A stretch of DNA of 26,762 nt from a virus. Numbering within the stretch: position 1 is the first letter of the stretch; every line of letters starts with the position of its first letter. Under the pieces are notes generated by a model, which saw nothing but the letters and a program-made list of their open reading frames with translations, was not told the origin of the DNA and did no database searches. Location of the stretch: positions 1 to 26,762 of IMG/VR virus record IMGVR_UViG_3300026078_000080; one strand, written 5' to 3'. Below are positions 3,028 to 11,154 of this stretch, in pieces. The translations under genes and the position numbers were made by a program.

Positions 3028-4679
3028 GCTGCACATTCCTTTATGATCTGCTCAACCATTTCGATGCGCCGTCCTATCCAGCGCACGGCATTGGCTGAAA
3101 ACCCGTTTCCGAGCGTTTTGTAGATCGGCCCGTCTGGTGGTGGGCTCTTGCCGCGCCACACAACATCATCGAAATAGTCGTCTGGTACGCCTTGAAGGCG
3201 GCAGCATTCTTTGTAGGTAAGACGTCGGACGGCCCATTCTGTCGCTATCGCTGGGGGATGAGCTCCAGCCGCAAGAGGATGGCAAGGATCACCTGGTTGC
3301 GGGTTGCTATAATTTGCTTTGCTGGTGATCTGCGTAGTATCGAAAGGGATAAGCGCATGTGGCTTATCACCGCCTCCTTCTCGACCGCGGATGGCTACAG
3401 ACACAGGAACAATAGGCGTTCCTCTCCCCGTCCCATCTTCGGAAGCATCGTAGCCTTCGGGCCGAAGGCTGTGCGCCACGAGGCCAGCGGCTTCCGGGAA
3501 GCCGCTGTGAGCGTCCCCATTGCTGGTGAGGGTGTCTGCTACATCGCGTGCCGTGCGAGCGATAACGACGTTATCGCTGTCGAGACGATGGCTATGTTGC
3601 GCCTGGGCTCGGAGCGGATTGGCGACTACGAACGTTTCACTGGCGAAATCTATACGGCCGGCAGGACCGCCGTGAGCCGCCAGTCTGGCGGCTGCCGTGA
3701 TTGGGCCTGAGCAATTATTCCCGCCATAGGCGACAAAGTTCTCTGTCTCCCAATCAAGGCGCTGGGCATAGCCCGCTGTGTCACAGCGGGCTACCGTGTC
3801 TACATGCGTAGCGGCAATGACATTGCCGCTGGCTAATTCGTCGGTTCCAGACTTTGATCCAAATCCCTGAGTGAGACTGCCCGTAACGCTGAAGCCAGTG
3901 CGATCGGCAGAGATTTTCCCCGCTTCTCTGACCGGCGGAGGATTCCCCGACATGCCTTCCCGCTCAAATAATACCGCTGCGGCACGTCGCCAGTCTCCAA
4001 GATATCCGACAACGAACACACGCCTTCGTCGCTGAGGGATAGCCCGTCCAAACCCGTCGATTCTGACATATTGAGTGTCAAGCACGCGCCATGCGAGGCC
4101 GTATGCGCGATTGTAGCCTTCGATAATGCCCGCAGACTTCCATCCCCCTTTCGGGGCTTCGACGCTTCGCCCGGAGAGCAATCCCAGAAGGCTTGCAAAG
4201 CTTCGTCCTCCATCGTGCGAAAGGACGCCGAAGACGTTCTCCCAGACCAGCCATCGGGGCCTGAACTTGCGAGCAATTGCAGCATAGGTGAGGGTGAGGT
4301 CACCACGCGGGTCATCCAATCCTTCTCGGAGACCCGCGATTGAATAGGACTGGCAGGGTGTTCCGCCGATGAGAAGATCGATAATTGCATCAGGCCATTC
4401 CTCGAATGTCGTCATGTCGCCATAGTTGGGAGGTCCGTTCGCGTCAGCCGGCAGAGAAGCTACCGCCTTTATTGCCGCACGGCGCTCCTTACGAGCTTCG
4501 GCTGTCAACCCAGCTTTATCTGGCGACGGCATGTTTTTCGGTCTGCCGCTCGAATGATGGTGATGGAGGACTGTCGATGCGAACGGGTCGATTTCCGCTA
4601 GGAATGCGGGTTGCCAGCCAAGTGGCTTCCAGGCGATGGCGGCACATTCGATTCCTGATGAAACAGAACCGTATCTCAT
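3024..4679 (-). CDS. DNA cytosine-5 methyltransferase
   Basis: The 551-aa enzyme would transfer a methyl group from SAM to C5 of cytosine in a specific site. The conserved motifs are all present in order: motif I SGIECA (residues 8-13), motif IV with the catalytic Cys in GGTPCQS (105-111), motif VI WENV (146-149), motif VIII QRRRR (216-220), motif IX VRRLTYKECCRLQG near 485, and motif X LGNGFSANAV near 523. About 260 residues separate motifs VIII and IX, longer than in compact enzymes of this class, and would include the target recognition domain. The start is chosen because motif I must be near the N-terminus; the ATG overlaps a 14-codon frame as ATGA. In a phage it most likely protects DNA from host restriction. 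Confidence 0.92.
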   Translation of the reverse strand: MRYGSVSSGIECAAIAWKPLGWQPAFLAEIDPFASTVLHHHHSSGRPKNMPSPDKAGLTAEARKERRAAIKAVASLPADANGPPNYGDMTTFEEWPDAIIDLLIGGTPCQSYSIAGLREGLDDPRGDLTLTYAAIARKFRPRWLVWENVFGVLSHDGGRSFASLLGLLSGRSVEAPKGGWKSAGIIEGYNRAYGLAWRVLDTQYVRIDGFGRAIPQRRRRVFVVGYLGDWRRAAAVLFEREGMSGNPPPVREAGKISADRTGFSVTGSLTQGFGSKSGTDELASGNVIAATHVDTVARCDTAGYAQRLDWETENFVAYGGNNCSGPITAAARLAAHGGPAGRIDFASETFVVANPLRAQAQHSHRLDSDNVVIARTARDVADTLTSNGDAHSGFPEAAGLVAHSLRPEGYDASEDGTGRGTPIVPVSVAIRGREGGGDKPHALIPFDTTQITSKANYSNPQPGDPCHPLAAGAHPPAIATEWAVRRLTYKECCRLQGVPDDYFDDVVWRGKSPPPDGPIYKTLGNGFSANAVRWIGRRIEMVEQIIKECAA

Positions 4680-6713: not shown

Positions 6714-7381
6714 TATGCTGCACTCCCGAAGAGATCTACCGAGGCAGGACGCTCGTTGCGCTGCTGCAGGAGAGCCATAAATGCCGGGTGGAACTCCTTG
6801 TCGATGACACTCGCGTGGGCCCAGCTATGGGCGACGCCAAAGGCTTCCGCCGCATTGTGAGCCAAAGTCTTTTGAGGTGGCAGCGTGATGCCATCATTCT
6901 CACATTTGGCGACAGCCGCAGCCTTCCAGTCGTTCTGGAATTTAGGTTTCCCCTTCTCTACGACTTGGCGCCTTACCTTCTGGCCATTGACGACGATGCT
7001 TTCCATCACCGGCAGTTGGGGAGGTTTGAAACCGATGCCGTAGAACGGCTTCCGCCACGTCGCGGGGTGGATTGTCGCTATCGGGGTGCCATAGACGCCG
7101 AAAACCCCGGTAACCGTGCCTATGACGTTCCAAACCCAGATTATGCCATTAATACCGGTGCCTTGAGTGCTTTCCGAACCCTGTTCAATAACAATAATGT
7201 CAGGGCGCCCGAAGTCATTCACTCTTGATCGAAGTTTTCTTCCTAGCTGAGCCCCATACCAATAATAATTTGGGCTGTCCTTCATATCGAGGACTTCGCA
7301 GTGAGCGGCCGAAACCGAGCGCTCAGCATCGTATATGGCCAAGCCGCATTTGGAAGATGGATCAATGCCCCAGACGATCAT
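6713..7381 (-). CDS. RuvC-like Holliday junction resolvase
   Basis: The 222-aa protein has the RNase H-like fold of RuvC nucleases. The first acidic motif is VWGIDPSSKCGLAIYD with Asp7, the second is IIVIEQGSES with Glu66, and the C-terminal motif is HNAAEAFGVAHSW with His175, Asn176 and Glu179 where RuvC usually has Asp residues. An IHPATWRKPFYG segment near 104-115 matches the conserved region before the third motif. It would cut branched replication or recombination intermediates. The start overlaps the GcrA-like gene as ATGA. The changed acidic residues in the last motif leave activity unproven. Confidence 0.8.
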   Translation of the reverse strand: MIVWGIDPSSKCGLAIYDAERSVSAAHCEVLDMKDSPNYYWYGAQLGRKLRSRVNDFGRPDIIVIEQGSESTQGTGINGIIWVWNVIGTVTGVFGVYGTPIATIHPATWRKPFYGIGFKPPQLPVMESIVVNGQKVRRQVVEKGKPKFQNDWKAAAVAKCENDGITLPPQKTLAHNAAEAFGVAHSWAHASVIDKEFHPAFMALLQQRNERPASVDLFGSAA

Positions 7382-8052
7382 CGGCTAACTCCTTGGGTAG
7401 GAGTTATGGCCCGAAGCGGATACGCCAAACGATGATGATGATCGCAGTAGTGGGATCCCTCCCCTGCTTTAGCGCCACAGCATGGCATTGAGCCGTCAGA
7501 AGGCTCGTTCGCGCTAGATATGGGGAACTTGCACTGCCCCGCAGCCAGATCGATGAAGAGAACTGGGTTCACGCCAGGGATGGCGTACACCGAGCTATCA
7601 AAGCCCCTCAACGATCTCTCGGTGGCCTTCTTCTCCCGCTCGAACCGCAAGGAAACTGCCTTAGTTATGGCCGAAGCCCCACTATTGGGCCGTACGCGTT
7701 CCGGGAAATATTGGGGATACCGCTTGATGACATCGCCCATCGCCGCAGTGGAGACGTCCATGGTTTCGGCCATAGCCGTTATCACGACATTCCGTGACCA
7801 AAGGGCTGCAGCCTTCAGCAAGCGCTCCCTTGTCCAAGGCATGCGCTTATTTGCCGAAACTACCAAATCCCTTTGCTTCACATCGACAACGCGTCTCGGG
7901 AATATGTCACGGTTGCGGCCGGTATATCCGGAGATCGCGCCCTTATGAATTCCAAGAGCCGCGGCGATCTGAGTAAGGGTGCAATCCTTCTCCCACATGA
8001 TCCGAGCTTGTTCGCGGTTTTGGTCTGTCCACTTGAAGGGCCTGCTGAGCAT
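7378..8052 (-). CDS. GcrA-family regulator with two HTH units
   Basis: GcrA proteins are alphaproteobacterial regulators that bind sigma70-RNA polymerase and promoters carrying CcrM-methylated GANTC sites. This 224-aa protein has an N-terminal GcrA-type HTH (residues 8-52: WT, MW, IAAALG, FPRR) and a second similar unit (73-117: WT, LW, ITAMAE, FPER). The C-terminal segment 166-212 carries the GcrA signature FIDLAAGQCKFPI followed by CCG and HYCDHHHRLAYP, probably metal-binding (Cys174, Cys191/192, Cys203, His205-207). The start is chosen for its GAGG site and because a longer frame covers the neighbouring gene. The likely role is control of host or phage promoters. Confidence 0.85.
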   Translation of the reverse strand: MLSRPFKWTDQNREQARIMWEKDCTLTQIAAALGIHKGAISGYTGRNRDIFPRRVVDVKQRDLVVSANKRMPWTRERLLKAAALWSRNVVITAMAETMDVSTAAMGDVIKRYPQYFPERVRPNSGASAITKAVSLRFEREKKATERSLRGFDSSVYAIPGVNPVLFIDLAAGQCKFPISSANEPSDGSMPCCGAKAGEGSHYCDHHHRLAYPLRAITPTQGVSR

Positions 8053-8059
8053 ATTGACC

Positions 8060-8410
8060 TCACGAATGCTTGATTGTTGGGATGAGACGCCATTGGGCAA
8101 GTTGGCCGGAGCCGCCCTTGGAAACAGAAATCGTCCAGCCGTAGGGCTCGATCTTCCGGCGCAACTGGCTGACCTGAACTTTGAGGATGACATCGGCGCG
8201 CTCTGGGCCACCATCCGGTCTACCGCCGTAAATGCGATCAAGGAGCATATCGCGCCTTACAGAAGAACCGACCGACCGCGAAAGAGCGTCAAATATGATG
8301 CGATGCGCTGGAGCTGTTATCGCCGATTTGACGTCATCGACTGTTGCGGCCTCTCCGATGGCGTTTCCGCAGCATGGGCAAGAATATGATTGTCTGGAAT
8401 GGATCGTCAT
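8060..8410 (-). CDS. winged-helix protein with N-terminal Cys motif
   Basis: The 116-aa protein starts with a CPCCG zinc-knuckle-like motif (residues 11-15) and ends in an OmpR/PhoB-type winged helix. The recognition-helix pattern ADVILKVQVSQLRRKIEPYG is followed by the wing hairpin WTISVSKGG near residues 70-100. It would bind DNA as a phage transcription regulator or replication accessory. Its gene follows a strong hairpin and ends seven bases before the GcrA-like gene, so the two regulators are expressed together. Confidence 0.75.
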   Translation of the reverse strand: MTIHSRQSYSCPCCGNAIGEAATVDDVKSAITAPAHRIIFDALSRSVGSSVRRDMLLDRIYGGRPDGGPERADVILKVQVSQLRRKIEPYGWTISVSKGGSGQLAQWRLIPTIKHS

Positions 8411-8502: not shown

Positions 8503-9099
8503 TCAGTTCATGCGGCCGGTAGCGCCAGCAACGGCGAATGGGTCGTACCCATCGCTCTCAAAGGGGTCGCCGTCGCCCGCAGGAGGCTCTTCCTTGGAAG
8601 CCGCAGCCTCAATCTTGGCGATGATGTCGGGGATCTCGGTCTCGTATTCGGTCTTGCCGGCGTCGTAGGAGTCTAACCAGAGGCGATCATCCGAACTGCC
8701 GCCGTCATAGCCAGACACCCGATCCAGACCGAGCAGACCGGCCTTATAGCCCTTGGCGCGGACAAGCTGCTCTTTGTCGACACGGTCAACCTGGGCAAGG
8801 AGGTCACCGCCGCTGGTCGATGGGATGAGCCCAAGCCACTCGAGATTTTCGCGGTCAGACTTCAGGCGGTCAACCGGCTTCTGGTCATCCTCGCCGAAGT
8901 GACCCTTGAGATAGTGGTCGAACTTCTGAGCGGTGAATGTTGGATCGGCGCCCTTGGCAAGCTTGCGGTTTGCCGACTTCTCCTGTGCGCCTTCACGACG
9001 TTTCGTCTCTGCCACCAGTTCCTTTCGGAAATGATGCGCGAAAAGCTTCTGACGCTGTTCAGGCGTCAATTTCTTGTTGTCACCGGCCAGTGCCGTCAT
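8503..9099 (-). CDS. phage protein with RMF-like segment
   Basis: The 198-aa acidic/basic protein is largely helical at its N-terminus. Residues 112-150 read AKGYKAGLLGLDRVSGYD followed by DRLWLDSYDAGK, which follows the spacing of ribosome modulation factor (GYxAGxxG...Y...RxxWLxxW). The last 40 residues are acidic and probably disordered (EEPPAGDGDPFESDGYDPF). The whole family seems common in rhizobial phages, but its function is not known to me. ATG has AAAGGA nine bases upstream. Confidence 0.7.
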   Translation of the reverse strand: MTALAGDNKKLTPEQRQKLFAHHFRKELVAETKRREGAQEKSANRKLAKGADPTFTAQKFDHYLKGHFGEDDQKPVDRLKSDRENLEWLGLIPSTSGGDLLAQVDRVDKEQLVRAKGYKAGLLGLDRVSGYDGGSSDDRLWLDSYDAGKTEYETEIPDIIAKIEAAASKEEPPAGDGDPFESDGYDPFAVAGATGRMN

Positions 9100-9102
9100 C
9101 GT

Positions 9103-9489
9103 TTATTGTCCTTTTGCTCGCCTGACTTTCGCAGCCAGAGCTTCCACTTCACCCACAAGATCCTCAAAGCGATCATCCTTCCCCCGTACTTCCTCGACCT
9201 CTCTTTGGAGGTCGCTGATTTGTTGTTGGCAGTAGTCAAGATAAGCCGCGCGGATGGTCCAGAAGGCATCGACCGTGATCGACTTCGCCCGACCGGCGCG
9301 GAGATGCATAATCTGCCAGAAGGAAAGGCCGTGCTTGCGGGCAAGCCGGCGAATGGCGTTCTCGACGTCACCATTGCCAGCGGTTTCCCGCTCCACCATC
9401 CTCCTCACGTACTCACTGGCTAAAGCTGTACTCATCACTGTTTTTCCCTGTTTATTTTCGTGCAAACCGTGAATTTGATTCTCTGACAT
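9103..9489 (-). CDS. hypothetical DNA-binding-like protein with coiled coil
   Basis: The 128-aa product has a basic helical region, YVRRMVERETAGNGDVENAI then RRLARKHGLSFWQIMHLRAG (residues about 27-67), which looks like a helix-turn-helix. It is followed by a coiled coil (DYCQQQISDLQREVEEVRGK onward). A role in DNA binding is an inference. The ATG used here has AAGGA 11 bases upstream, held in the bulge of a long hairpin. A second ATG at residue 19 (position 9435) could be used instead, because the conserved-looking part begins there. Confidence 0.65.
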   Translation of the reverse strand: MSENQIHGLHENKQGKTVMSTALASEYVRRMVERETAGNGDVENAIRRLARKHGLSFWQIMHLRAGRAKSITVDAFWTIRAAYLDYCQQQISDLQREVEEVRGKDDRFEDLVGEVEALAAKVRRAKGQ

Positions 9490-9492
9490 CGT

Positions 9493-9545
9493 GAATGCCG
9501 TCCTTCTCGCTACGGGCTATGTTCTTCCCGTACCGAGCGGCATTC
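9493..9545 (-). promoter_or_regulatory. leader hairpin with Shine-Dalgarno in a bulge
   Basis: On the minus strand the leader folds as GAATGCCG, CTCGGTACGGG, a 10-nt loop, CCCGTAGCGAG, AAGGA, CGGCATTC. That is an outer 8-bp perfect stem and an inner 11-bp stem with one mismatch. The sole asymmetry is a 5-nt bulge that is exactly AAGGA, the Shine-Dalgarno sequence of the next gene (ATG at 9489). This looks like a translational switch. Confidence 0.6.
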
Positions 9546-9552
9546 GAAAGGT

Positions 9553-9860: not shown

Positions 9861-9987
9861 TGTCGCGCTCCTCCTGGCTGGAGATGCGAGAGGAAAGCAT
9901 GCAAGCCGACAGGGCCGCGATAGTGCAGACGAAGAACCCAAGGGCTGCCGCAGATGCTAGAGCCGTTTCAAGGGAGATCGTGATCAT
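9850..9987 (-). CDS. tiny membrane protein (45 aa)
   Basis: This short gene starts with ATG overlapping the upstream stop (ATGA) and ends inside the start of the 60-aa gene. The product is MITISLETALASAAALGFFV followed by CTIAALSACMLSSRISSQEE and RDNAR. Residues 8-30 form one hydrophobic segment followed by a charged tail. A GGTGAT about five bases upstream could serve as ribosome binding site. Both flanks being coupled makes it more likely real than its length suggests. Function is unknown. Confidence 0.55.
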   Translation of the reverse strand: MITISLETALASAAALGFFVCTIAALSACMLSSRISSQEERDNAR

Positions 9988-10301
9988 GAGATCACCACGA
10001 TTTTGGGCTGGTAGTTCAGCATGGCTTGGAACTGGCTGATATCGGTCTTGCGCTCGACAACCGGCTTAAAACGCTTAGGGTCCCAGCCCTGCTCGTAAAT
10101 CATCCCGTTGTAGTGATCGAGTTCGTTGCGGACCTCATTGAGCCAGACGCAAGGGAGATCAATCAGCGTGCCGACTTCCCTTACCGTGTAAATCACCCCC
10201 ATCTCAGGAAGGACAACGCCGTCCAGCGGCGCTATAGCTCGCTGCCAAGGCTCCCAGTCTCGAATGCAAACGATCTTCTGCCCAACACGGAAATTGCTCA
10301 T
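9984..10301 (-). CDS. hypothetical protein, SH3-like
   Basis: The 105-aa protein reads FRVGQKIVCIRD near the start, then MGVIYTVREVGTL near residue 35, CVWLNEVRNELDHYNG near 50, and FKPVVERKTDISQFQAML near 78. This is the pattern of a small beta-barrel protein common in rhizobial and other alphaproteobacterial phages, ending with the conserved RKTDISxF segment. Its role is unknown. It overlaps genes on both sides by four bases (ATGA). Confidence 0.7.
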   Translation of the reverse strand: MSNFRVGQKIVCIRDWEPWQRAIAPLDGVVLPEMGVIYTVREVGTLIDLPCVWLNEVRNELDHYNGMIYEQGWDPKRFKPVVERKTDISQFQAMLNYQPKIVVIS

Positions 10302-10767: not shown

Positions 10768-11154
10768 TCAGACTCCCCCTCCCACATCATCGATCAATGC
10801 GGGGCAGACGGATTCGACGGCGCCTGCCCCGATCTGGACCACCGCAGCCTCGATGTTGCCCAAAGGAGTCCAGGCCTCTGGGCTATCGGTGGCTGCGGCG
10901 GGTTTGGAATTGTCTCTGGCGATCACCTGAGAGGCGATCTTTTCCAAGTATTGGCGGTCGGAAAGCTCAGGAGCGCGAAGAATGCCAAGGTTGAGGTGCG
11001 CGCGTATAACTGCCGCAAACTCCCAGCCATGCGCCGGCATGTCATTGCGCTGGGTCTGGATCCAATCAGCCACCGTTGTCAGGGCGTCGTTATAACCTTC
11101 GGCATATTGTCCCTTGCAAACAGCCGCAAAGCTGAGATCGTTCATTTCCGTCAT
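10768..11154 (-). CDS. hypothetical phage protein
   Basis: The 128-aa product begins MTEMNDLSFAAVCKGQYAEG. The first half is helical (GYNDALTTVADWIQTQRNDM, then WEFAAVIRAHL), and the second half is acidic and Ala-rich, probably flexible. No family is recognised. The ATG overlaps the previous stop (ATGA); a second ATG three codons later is possible. Confidence 0.6.
   Translation of the reverse strand: MTEMNDLSFAAVCKGQYAEGYNDALTTVADWIQTQRNDMPAHGWEFAAVIRAHLNLGILRAPELSDRQYLEKIASQVIARDNSKPAAATDSPEAWTPLGNIEAAVVQIGAGAVESVCPALIDDVGGGV

Follow-up and report, generated by a model that had tools for sequence, protein, structure and literature searches.

In the early-type region of a linear viral record (26,762 bases; the whole stretch analysed, referred to here as the window), a small gene is preceded on the minus strand by a leader that can fold into an almost uninterrupted hairpin, in which the only asymmetric bulge is the Shine-Dalgarno (SD) sequence of that gene. 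This raises the question of whether the hairpin controls translation and, if so, which of its properties is under selection. The initial annotation of the locus proposed that the outer stem shows or hides the bulged SD, either as an RNA switch or as a protein-binding translational operator of an early phage gene.

Architecture of the leader hairpin

Read 5' to 3' on the minus strand from 9545 to 9493, the hairpin consists of the 5' arm of the outer stem (GAATGCCG, 9538-9545), the 5' arm of the inner stem (CTCGGTACGGG, 9527-9537), an apical loop (AAGAACATAG, 9517-9526), the 3' arm of the inner stem (CCCGTAGCGAG, 9506-9516), AAGGA (SD1, 9501-9505) and the 3' arm of the outer stem (CGGCATTC, 9493-9500), after which ACG leads into the ATG at 9489. 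The outer stem comprises 8 bp and fills the spacer between SD1 and this start codon (start 1), the inner stem comprises 11 positions with one G-G mismatch, and the bulged AAGGA on the 3' side lies 11 nt 5' of the ATG; the hairpin matches the annotated one exactly. Within the loop, AACATA (9523-9518) is an instance of an AACNTA element, and CCTTTC, located immediately 5' of the 5' arm (9546-9551, minus strand), matches an enriched TCCTTT/CCTTTC element.

Folding of the leader with RNAfold, which the annotation had suggested as a check, returns both stems and the one-sided AAGGA bulge at -28.7 kcal/mol, compared with -13.9 +/- 2.7 kcal/mol for 200 dinucleotide shuffles, none of which folds as well (z = -5.6). 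Among 17,802 overlapping 61-nt windows taken from both strands, 52 fold as well as the hairpin, the strongest being clustered within other genes, and the hairpin is unusual in this GC-rich stretch, yet not unique. Since equally strong folds exist elsewhere in the window, folding energy alone is not decisive, and conservation is the deciding evidence. The SD itself is predicted to be unpaired in its bulge (pairing 0.01), and the opening cost computed for the window is not extreme, at 12.3 kcal/mol where the controls, in the same setting, have a median of 10.4 kcal/mol.

Two other structured places in the window are worth recording. The strongest-folding 61-nt segment (-37.3 kcal/mol) is located at 10838-10901, within a small open reading frame (ORF, 10768-11154), and a predicted C5 DNA methyltransferase gene contains a cluster of four inverted repeats (3485-3507, 3558-3578, 3769-3793 and 3810-3830), each with perfect arms of 10-12 bp around a 1-nt spacer, which overlap some of the strongest folds of the window.

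The downstream gene and its neighbourhood

The gene downstream of the hairpin (9103-9489, minus strand) encodes a protein of 128 amino acids whose only match is phrog_35370, a family of uncharacterised function. Its AlphaFold2 model contains a confident core from about residue 20, with a helix-turn-helix (HTH)-like fold followed by a C-terminal coiled coil, and an N-terminal tail of low confidence (residues 1-20, pLDDT about 46). The HTH_3 model is weakly matched by three family members (best E 1.2e-4), and a Foldseek search of the PDB gave no significant match, the top weak ones including Cro/C1-like controller proteins; on this evidence, assignment to the HTH class is likely but falls short of proof. 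Neither the domain models nor Foldseek recognised an RNA-binding domain in the encoded protein.

The minus-strand region to which the gene belongs also encodes a DnaB-like helicase, a RuvC-like resolvase, a C5 DNA methyltransferase, an HNH nuclease and a protein with a GcrA cell-cycle regulator domain (PF07750, 3.7e-13), the last of which is located a few genes downstream of the hairpin gene (7378-8241, minus strand). In 36 of the 79 loci where this could be assessed, the downstream gene is homologous to the one at 8503-9099 in the window. Upstream, the small protein encoded at 9984-10301 (minus strand) and the products of upstream ORFs in L066 and L079 share a similar motif (GVIYTVRE, GVTYTLRG and GLVYTIRS), and the presence of this protein near the gene even in distant relatives suggests a conserved early gene neighbourhood.

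Conservation of structure with rewritten sequence

The gene family resides in phages and prophages of Rhizobiaceae and other Hyphomicrobiales. Relatives were collected by protein searches of viral contigs and of Rhizobiaceae and other Hyphomicrobiales genomes, and removal of near-identical leaders left 84 distinct ones, in which we placed start 1 according to the frame and the SD next to it. DNA and protein searches of a phage collection of about 50,000 catalogued records found no relative at the cut-off used. Among the order-level relatives, L066, L068-L071, L073 and L079 are distant; L067, L072, L074-L078 and L080 were left out as dubious homologs or because of uncertain starts, a choice that could favour the hypothesis in the order-level set only. 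A divergent set of 45 leaders (mean text similarity 0.48) was compared with 383 other gene starts from the same loci.

In nearly all of the 84 leaders, the best single hairpin ends just 5' of start 1 and holds the SD in its 3' arm. Across the 45 divergent leaders, the 5' arm occupies roughly -50 to -30 and the 3' arm -20 to -5, with a loop or dip near -25. Base-pair probabilities reflect this geometry: positions -50 to -30 act as 5' partners with values of 0.56-0.64, compared with 0.26-0.37 in the controls, and positions -20 to -5 act as 3' partners with values of 0.62-0.75, compared with 0.23-0.34, a 5'/3' polarity that is absent from the control gene starts. Mean SD pairing is 0.80 in the family and 0.54 in the controls (p = 7e-16, or 1.5e-9 for a coarsely dereplicated set), the opening cost is 16.1 against 10.5 kcal/mol, and the mean folding z of the family leaders is -2.9; L064, L032, L050 and L017 are weak folders.

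The letters that form this structure are almost completely different between relatives. Complementary arms are written as GTCCTTCGCT..AGCGAAGGAC in L052, TGCTCCATGC..GCATGGAGCA in L087, CTCCCTG..CAGGGAG in L069 and CGTCGTCTCCG..CGGAGACGACG in L079, and a compensated change separates L122 (GGTCGCT..AGCGACC) from L136 (GGTTGCT..AGCAACC). Formal pair counts were made in a clade of 16 sequences that can be aligned without gaps over 12 pairs; in MAFFT alignments of the type-B and TDSK clades, the 5' arm is too gapped for such counts. In the 16-sequence clade, 8 of the 12 pairs are altered on both sides, double-change cells number 35 against 15.3 after shuffling, and the covariation score is 0.47 against 0.28 (0/500 shuffles). 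The percentage paired exceeds all 500 shuffles and the number of pairs with a double change exceeds all but 14, whereas, of the five measures used, the count of further pair types shows no excess. Sliding the partner by one column reduces pairing from 83% to 34-50%. Two marks of an SD-occluding hairpin, an SD/start region held in a leader helix and compensatory change, are found in the family.

The annotation had named arms that change without compensation in homologous loci as grounds against the hairpin; both arms do change in the relatives, with compensation, and the hairpin stands. Because it is kept across very different relatives despite an almost complete change of letters, it is very likely, judged from these comparisons, that the hairpin is a real translation control element.

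The window arrives at occlusion through a paired spacer and a bulged SD. Within its own clade, the SD is bulged (the window) or partly paired, and an outer stem of 5-8 bp covers the spacer in the window, L033, L013, L032, L008 and L044, with L013 carrying a C-G to G-C double change in the outer stem relative to the window. In L009, L011 and L036 the outer stem is gone and the SD lies inside the inner stem, so the outer stem can be dispensed with where the inner stem covers the SD. Bulging of the SD is thus seen in a minority and is one of several solutions, the SD of most relatives being paired within a helix; what is conserved is therefore occlusion, and selection appears to act on the inaccessibility of the ribosome site and not on an SD presented in a bulge. 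Of the annotated device, the translational control element at an early-region phage gene is upheld by the compensating arms of the relatives, whereas the bulged SD, shown or hidden by the outer stem, is not supported as its essential part.

Elements in and around the hairpin

Conservation of the loop sequence is partial. AACNTA is found between -40 and -8 in 20 of 45 leaders and in 3 of 383 controls, typically at -21 to -26 and on the 3' side of the loop. The upstream TCCTTT (UCCUUU in the RNA) occurs in 13/45 leaders and 1/383 controls, and CCTTTC in 12/45 and 8/383, respectively. This element is located at about -50 to -65 from start 1 and resembles the anti-SD tail of 16S rRNA; an alternative fold in which it pairs with the SD is conceivable, as is a role as a signal in the DNA.

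When both strands of 836 kb are counted, the combined arrangement of CCTTY and AAMNTA has 37 occurrences at target leaders and 34 at other places. A hairpin model built from the 16-sequence clade gave a single strong match (3.5e-6) in 151 Rhizobiaceae genomes, located 5' of a family member; a mobile element or genome-wide regulon was considered and rejected, as the weaker matches of the model have no family gene and fall in coding or terminator-like contexts.

Among the nine type-B leaders (L002, L004, L005, L010, L014-L017 and L020), the apical loop GACAC or GACAU is complementary to GUGUC or AUGUC at the start codon in eight, with one matching change, and a loop-to-start-codon pseudoknot is possible in this group; with 5 bp only, it is not a general feature. 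Two further candidates were rejected: an intrinsic terminator, since no T tract lies 3' of the hairpin, and autoregulation of the BoxB/N kind, for which some pentaloops look similar, although an arginine-rich N-terminus was not noticed and the literature searched was uninformative.

Two in-frame starts

Start 1 (ATG, 9487-9489, minus strand) is in frame with the core in all relatives, and where an SD-bearing ATG is found near start 1, it is in frame in 35 cases and out of frame in 3. A second in-frame start (start 2, ATG, 9433-9435, minus strand) is located at the edge of the folded core and is preserved as ATG or GTG in 84/84 relatives, several aligned valines being GTG codons. It is preceded in the window by a candidate SD2, AGGGA (9445-9449, minus strand), with one mismatch to the anti-SD. 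In the start-2 region, 72/84 relatives have a start codon whose SD match reaches 4 nt or more, compared with 36% of comparable stretches elsewhere in the gene; the exact SD match at start 2 is often weak, and its SD pairing of 0.56 is average, not open.

The extension between the two starts (9436-9486, minus strand) is variable and predicted to be disordered. Differences by codon position are 0.40/0.25/0.36 in the extension and 0.23/0.07/0.70 in the core, values from pair counts that are not phylogenetically independent, and they suggest weak constraint on the extension at the protein level. In L068, L069, L070 and L071, the segment between the starts contains short repeats, for example TTTTTGCAG/TGCAAAAA, which may be operators or form small hairpins close to start 2.

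Given a second in-frame start in all 84 genes, the pattern is best explained by two-start translation in which start 1 would be gated by the hairpin. The annotation had treated translation from 9435 only as a possible refutation; as this start is kept in 84/84, the choice of start belongs to the system.

Proposed mechanism and alternatives

Building on the conserved structure, the covariation, the SD occlusion and the two conserved in-frame starts, all of them computational findings, we consider it probable that the hairpin is a cis-acting translational element that occludes the first ribosome site of an early-region HTH/coiled-coil gene and sets the ratio of its long and short products. The default effect of the hairpin would be to silence start 1 (9489) or keep its use low; most relatives would achieve this by pairing the SD, the window by holding it bulged between two helices with the spacer paired. 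Start 2 (9435), beyond the hairpin and at the edge of the folded domain, would yield a short form, so that the hairpin would set the amount of N-terminally extended protein relative to it. The enrichment of an AAC-type loop points to a trans-acting ligand, which may lock or open the hairpin; the gene's own product, acting on the mRNA that encodes it, is a possible candidate. A broader proposal, which we offer more tentatively and hold to be doubtful, is that of a new cis-regulatory hairpin family across Hyphomicrobiales phages and prophages, in which a factor reading the AAC loop would switch between long and short forms of an HTH-like regulator and so take part in early gene control or in the choice between lysis and lysogeny.

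One alternative is that the hairpin shields the gene from read-through, as for T4 e, soc, 49 and I-TevI: the gene would be silent on long upstream transcripts, and a promoter within the hairpin would give shorter, translated mRNAs that lack the 5' arm. The architecture is alike, with the SD or AUG in a helix (PMC3014915), the intergenic leader of the window (about 130 nt) has room for a promoter of its own, and AACNTA, where present, keeps a fairly constant position, mostly between -21 and -26. Against this, a sigma-70 scan of the window found no sigma-70-type promoter in or near the hairpin, the covariation of UA and the bases after it with the 5' arm is what RNA pairs should show and a promoter box should not, and a transcript started from AACNTA at -22 would land on or past the SD. 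We judge this explanation unlikely.

An account that we hold to be just as improbable makes the hairpin a purely autogenous operator, to which the encoded protein binds to repress all of its own synthesis, start 2 being minor. The restriction of the element to the hairpin gene's own family, as seen with the one-clade model in 151 genomes, would fit, and the conserved AAC of the loop recalls the UAAC/CAAC loop of the T4 gp43 operator. However, the HTH-like domain of the product suggests DNA binding and no RNA-binding domain is recognised in it, the hairpin is already occlusive without protein, and the strict conservation of start 2 is left unexplained.

With an HTH-like product and a regulatory region, the inverted repeat might instead act in the DNA, as a dimeric operator of a Cro-like protein with no role in RNA. 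A protein operator should keep its sequence and spacing, whereas the arms here vary freely with compensation, the loop length ranges from 3 to 20 nt, and the pairing keeps a fixed position relative to the SD and the start codon, which makes this very unlikely.

ROSE elements occur in rhizobia, and the leader hairpin, like those of the ROSE and fourU types, sequesters the SD. A fourU thermometer has also been reported in a prophage gene (PMC10586365). An RNA thermometer is nevertheless disfavoured to the point of being extremely doubtful, since the energy model predicts SD pairing to be temperature-insensitive (0.79-0.81 across 20 to 55 C), and no Rfam match was obtained. Chance or composition in GC-rich leaders, for which the 52 equally well-folding segments of the window might speak, can practically be discounted, as matched control starts from the same loci lack both the geometry and the SD pairing, and the 16-sequence clade covaries.

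Comparison with known systems

The window and 33 related loci gave no match to Rfam 15 at the gathering score, and no description of the hairpin was found in the open-access literature searched. The conserved starts and the loop element make cheap, concrete reporter tests possible in rhizobia.

In the leaders of T4 e, soc, 49 and I-TevI and of phage Aeh1 mobE, an mRNA hairpin hides the SD and/or AUG and lowers initiation (PMC3014915), and it is this placing of a phage mRNA hairpin over the SD and/or AUG that the present case shares. The T4-like phage examples concern lysis, capsid or endonuclease genes, whereas the gene here is an HTH-like one of rhizobial phages and prophages; further differences are the loop element enriched here, the two conserved starts, and a sigma-70 scan that found no promoter within the hairpin.

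Lambda S has two in-frame starts that give long and short forms, with the sdi RNA structure located at the first (PMC3359269, PMC9636201). The likeness to lambda S with sdi follows from the two starts, conserved here in every relative, with RNA structure at the first. The lambda S starts are 2 codons apart, compared with usually 12-22 codons here, and the product here is soluble; a sequence relation is not expected. By analogy, the hairpin would resemble the T4-type and lambda S systems in its working, which does not show membership of either.

The operator of T4 gp43 (DNA polymerase) also combines a hairpin beside the ribosome site with a conserved AC-type loop. There, the gp43 protein has been shown to bind and the hairpin is about 40 nt upstream of the start codon, whereas the present hairpin overlaps the SD and its binder is putative. 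Hairpins over ribosome sites are already known from single model phages; that one has persisted throughout a highly divergent family of phage proteins as its letters were rewritten is direct evidence, of a rare kind, for long-term selection on the translational gating of one phage gene.
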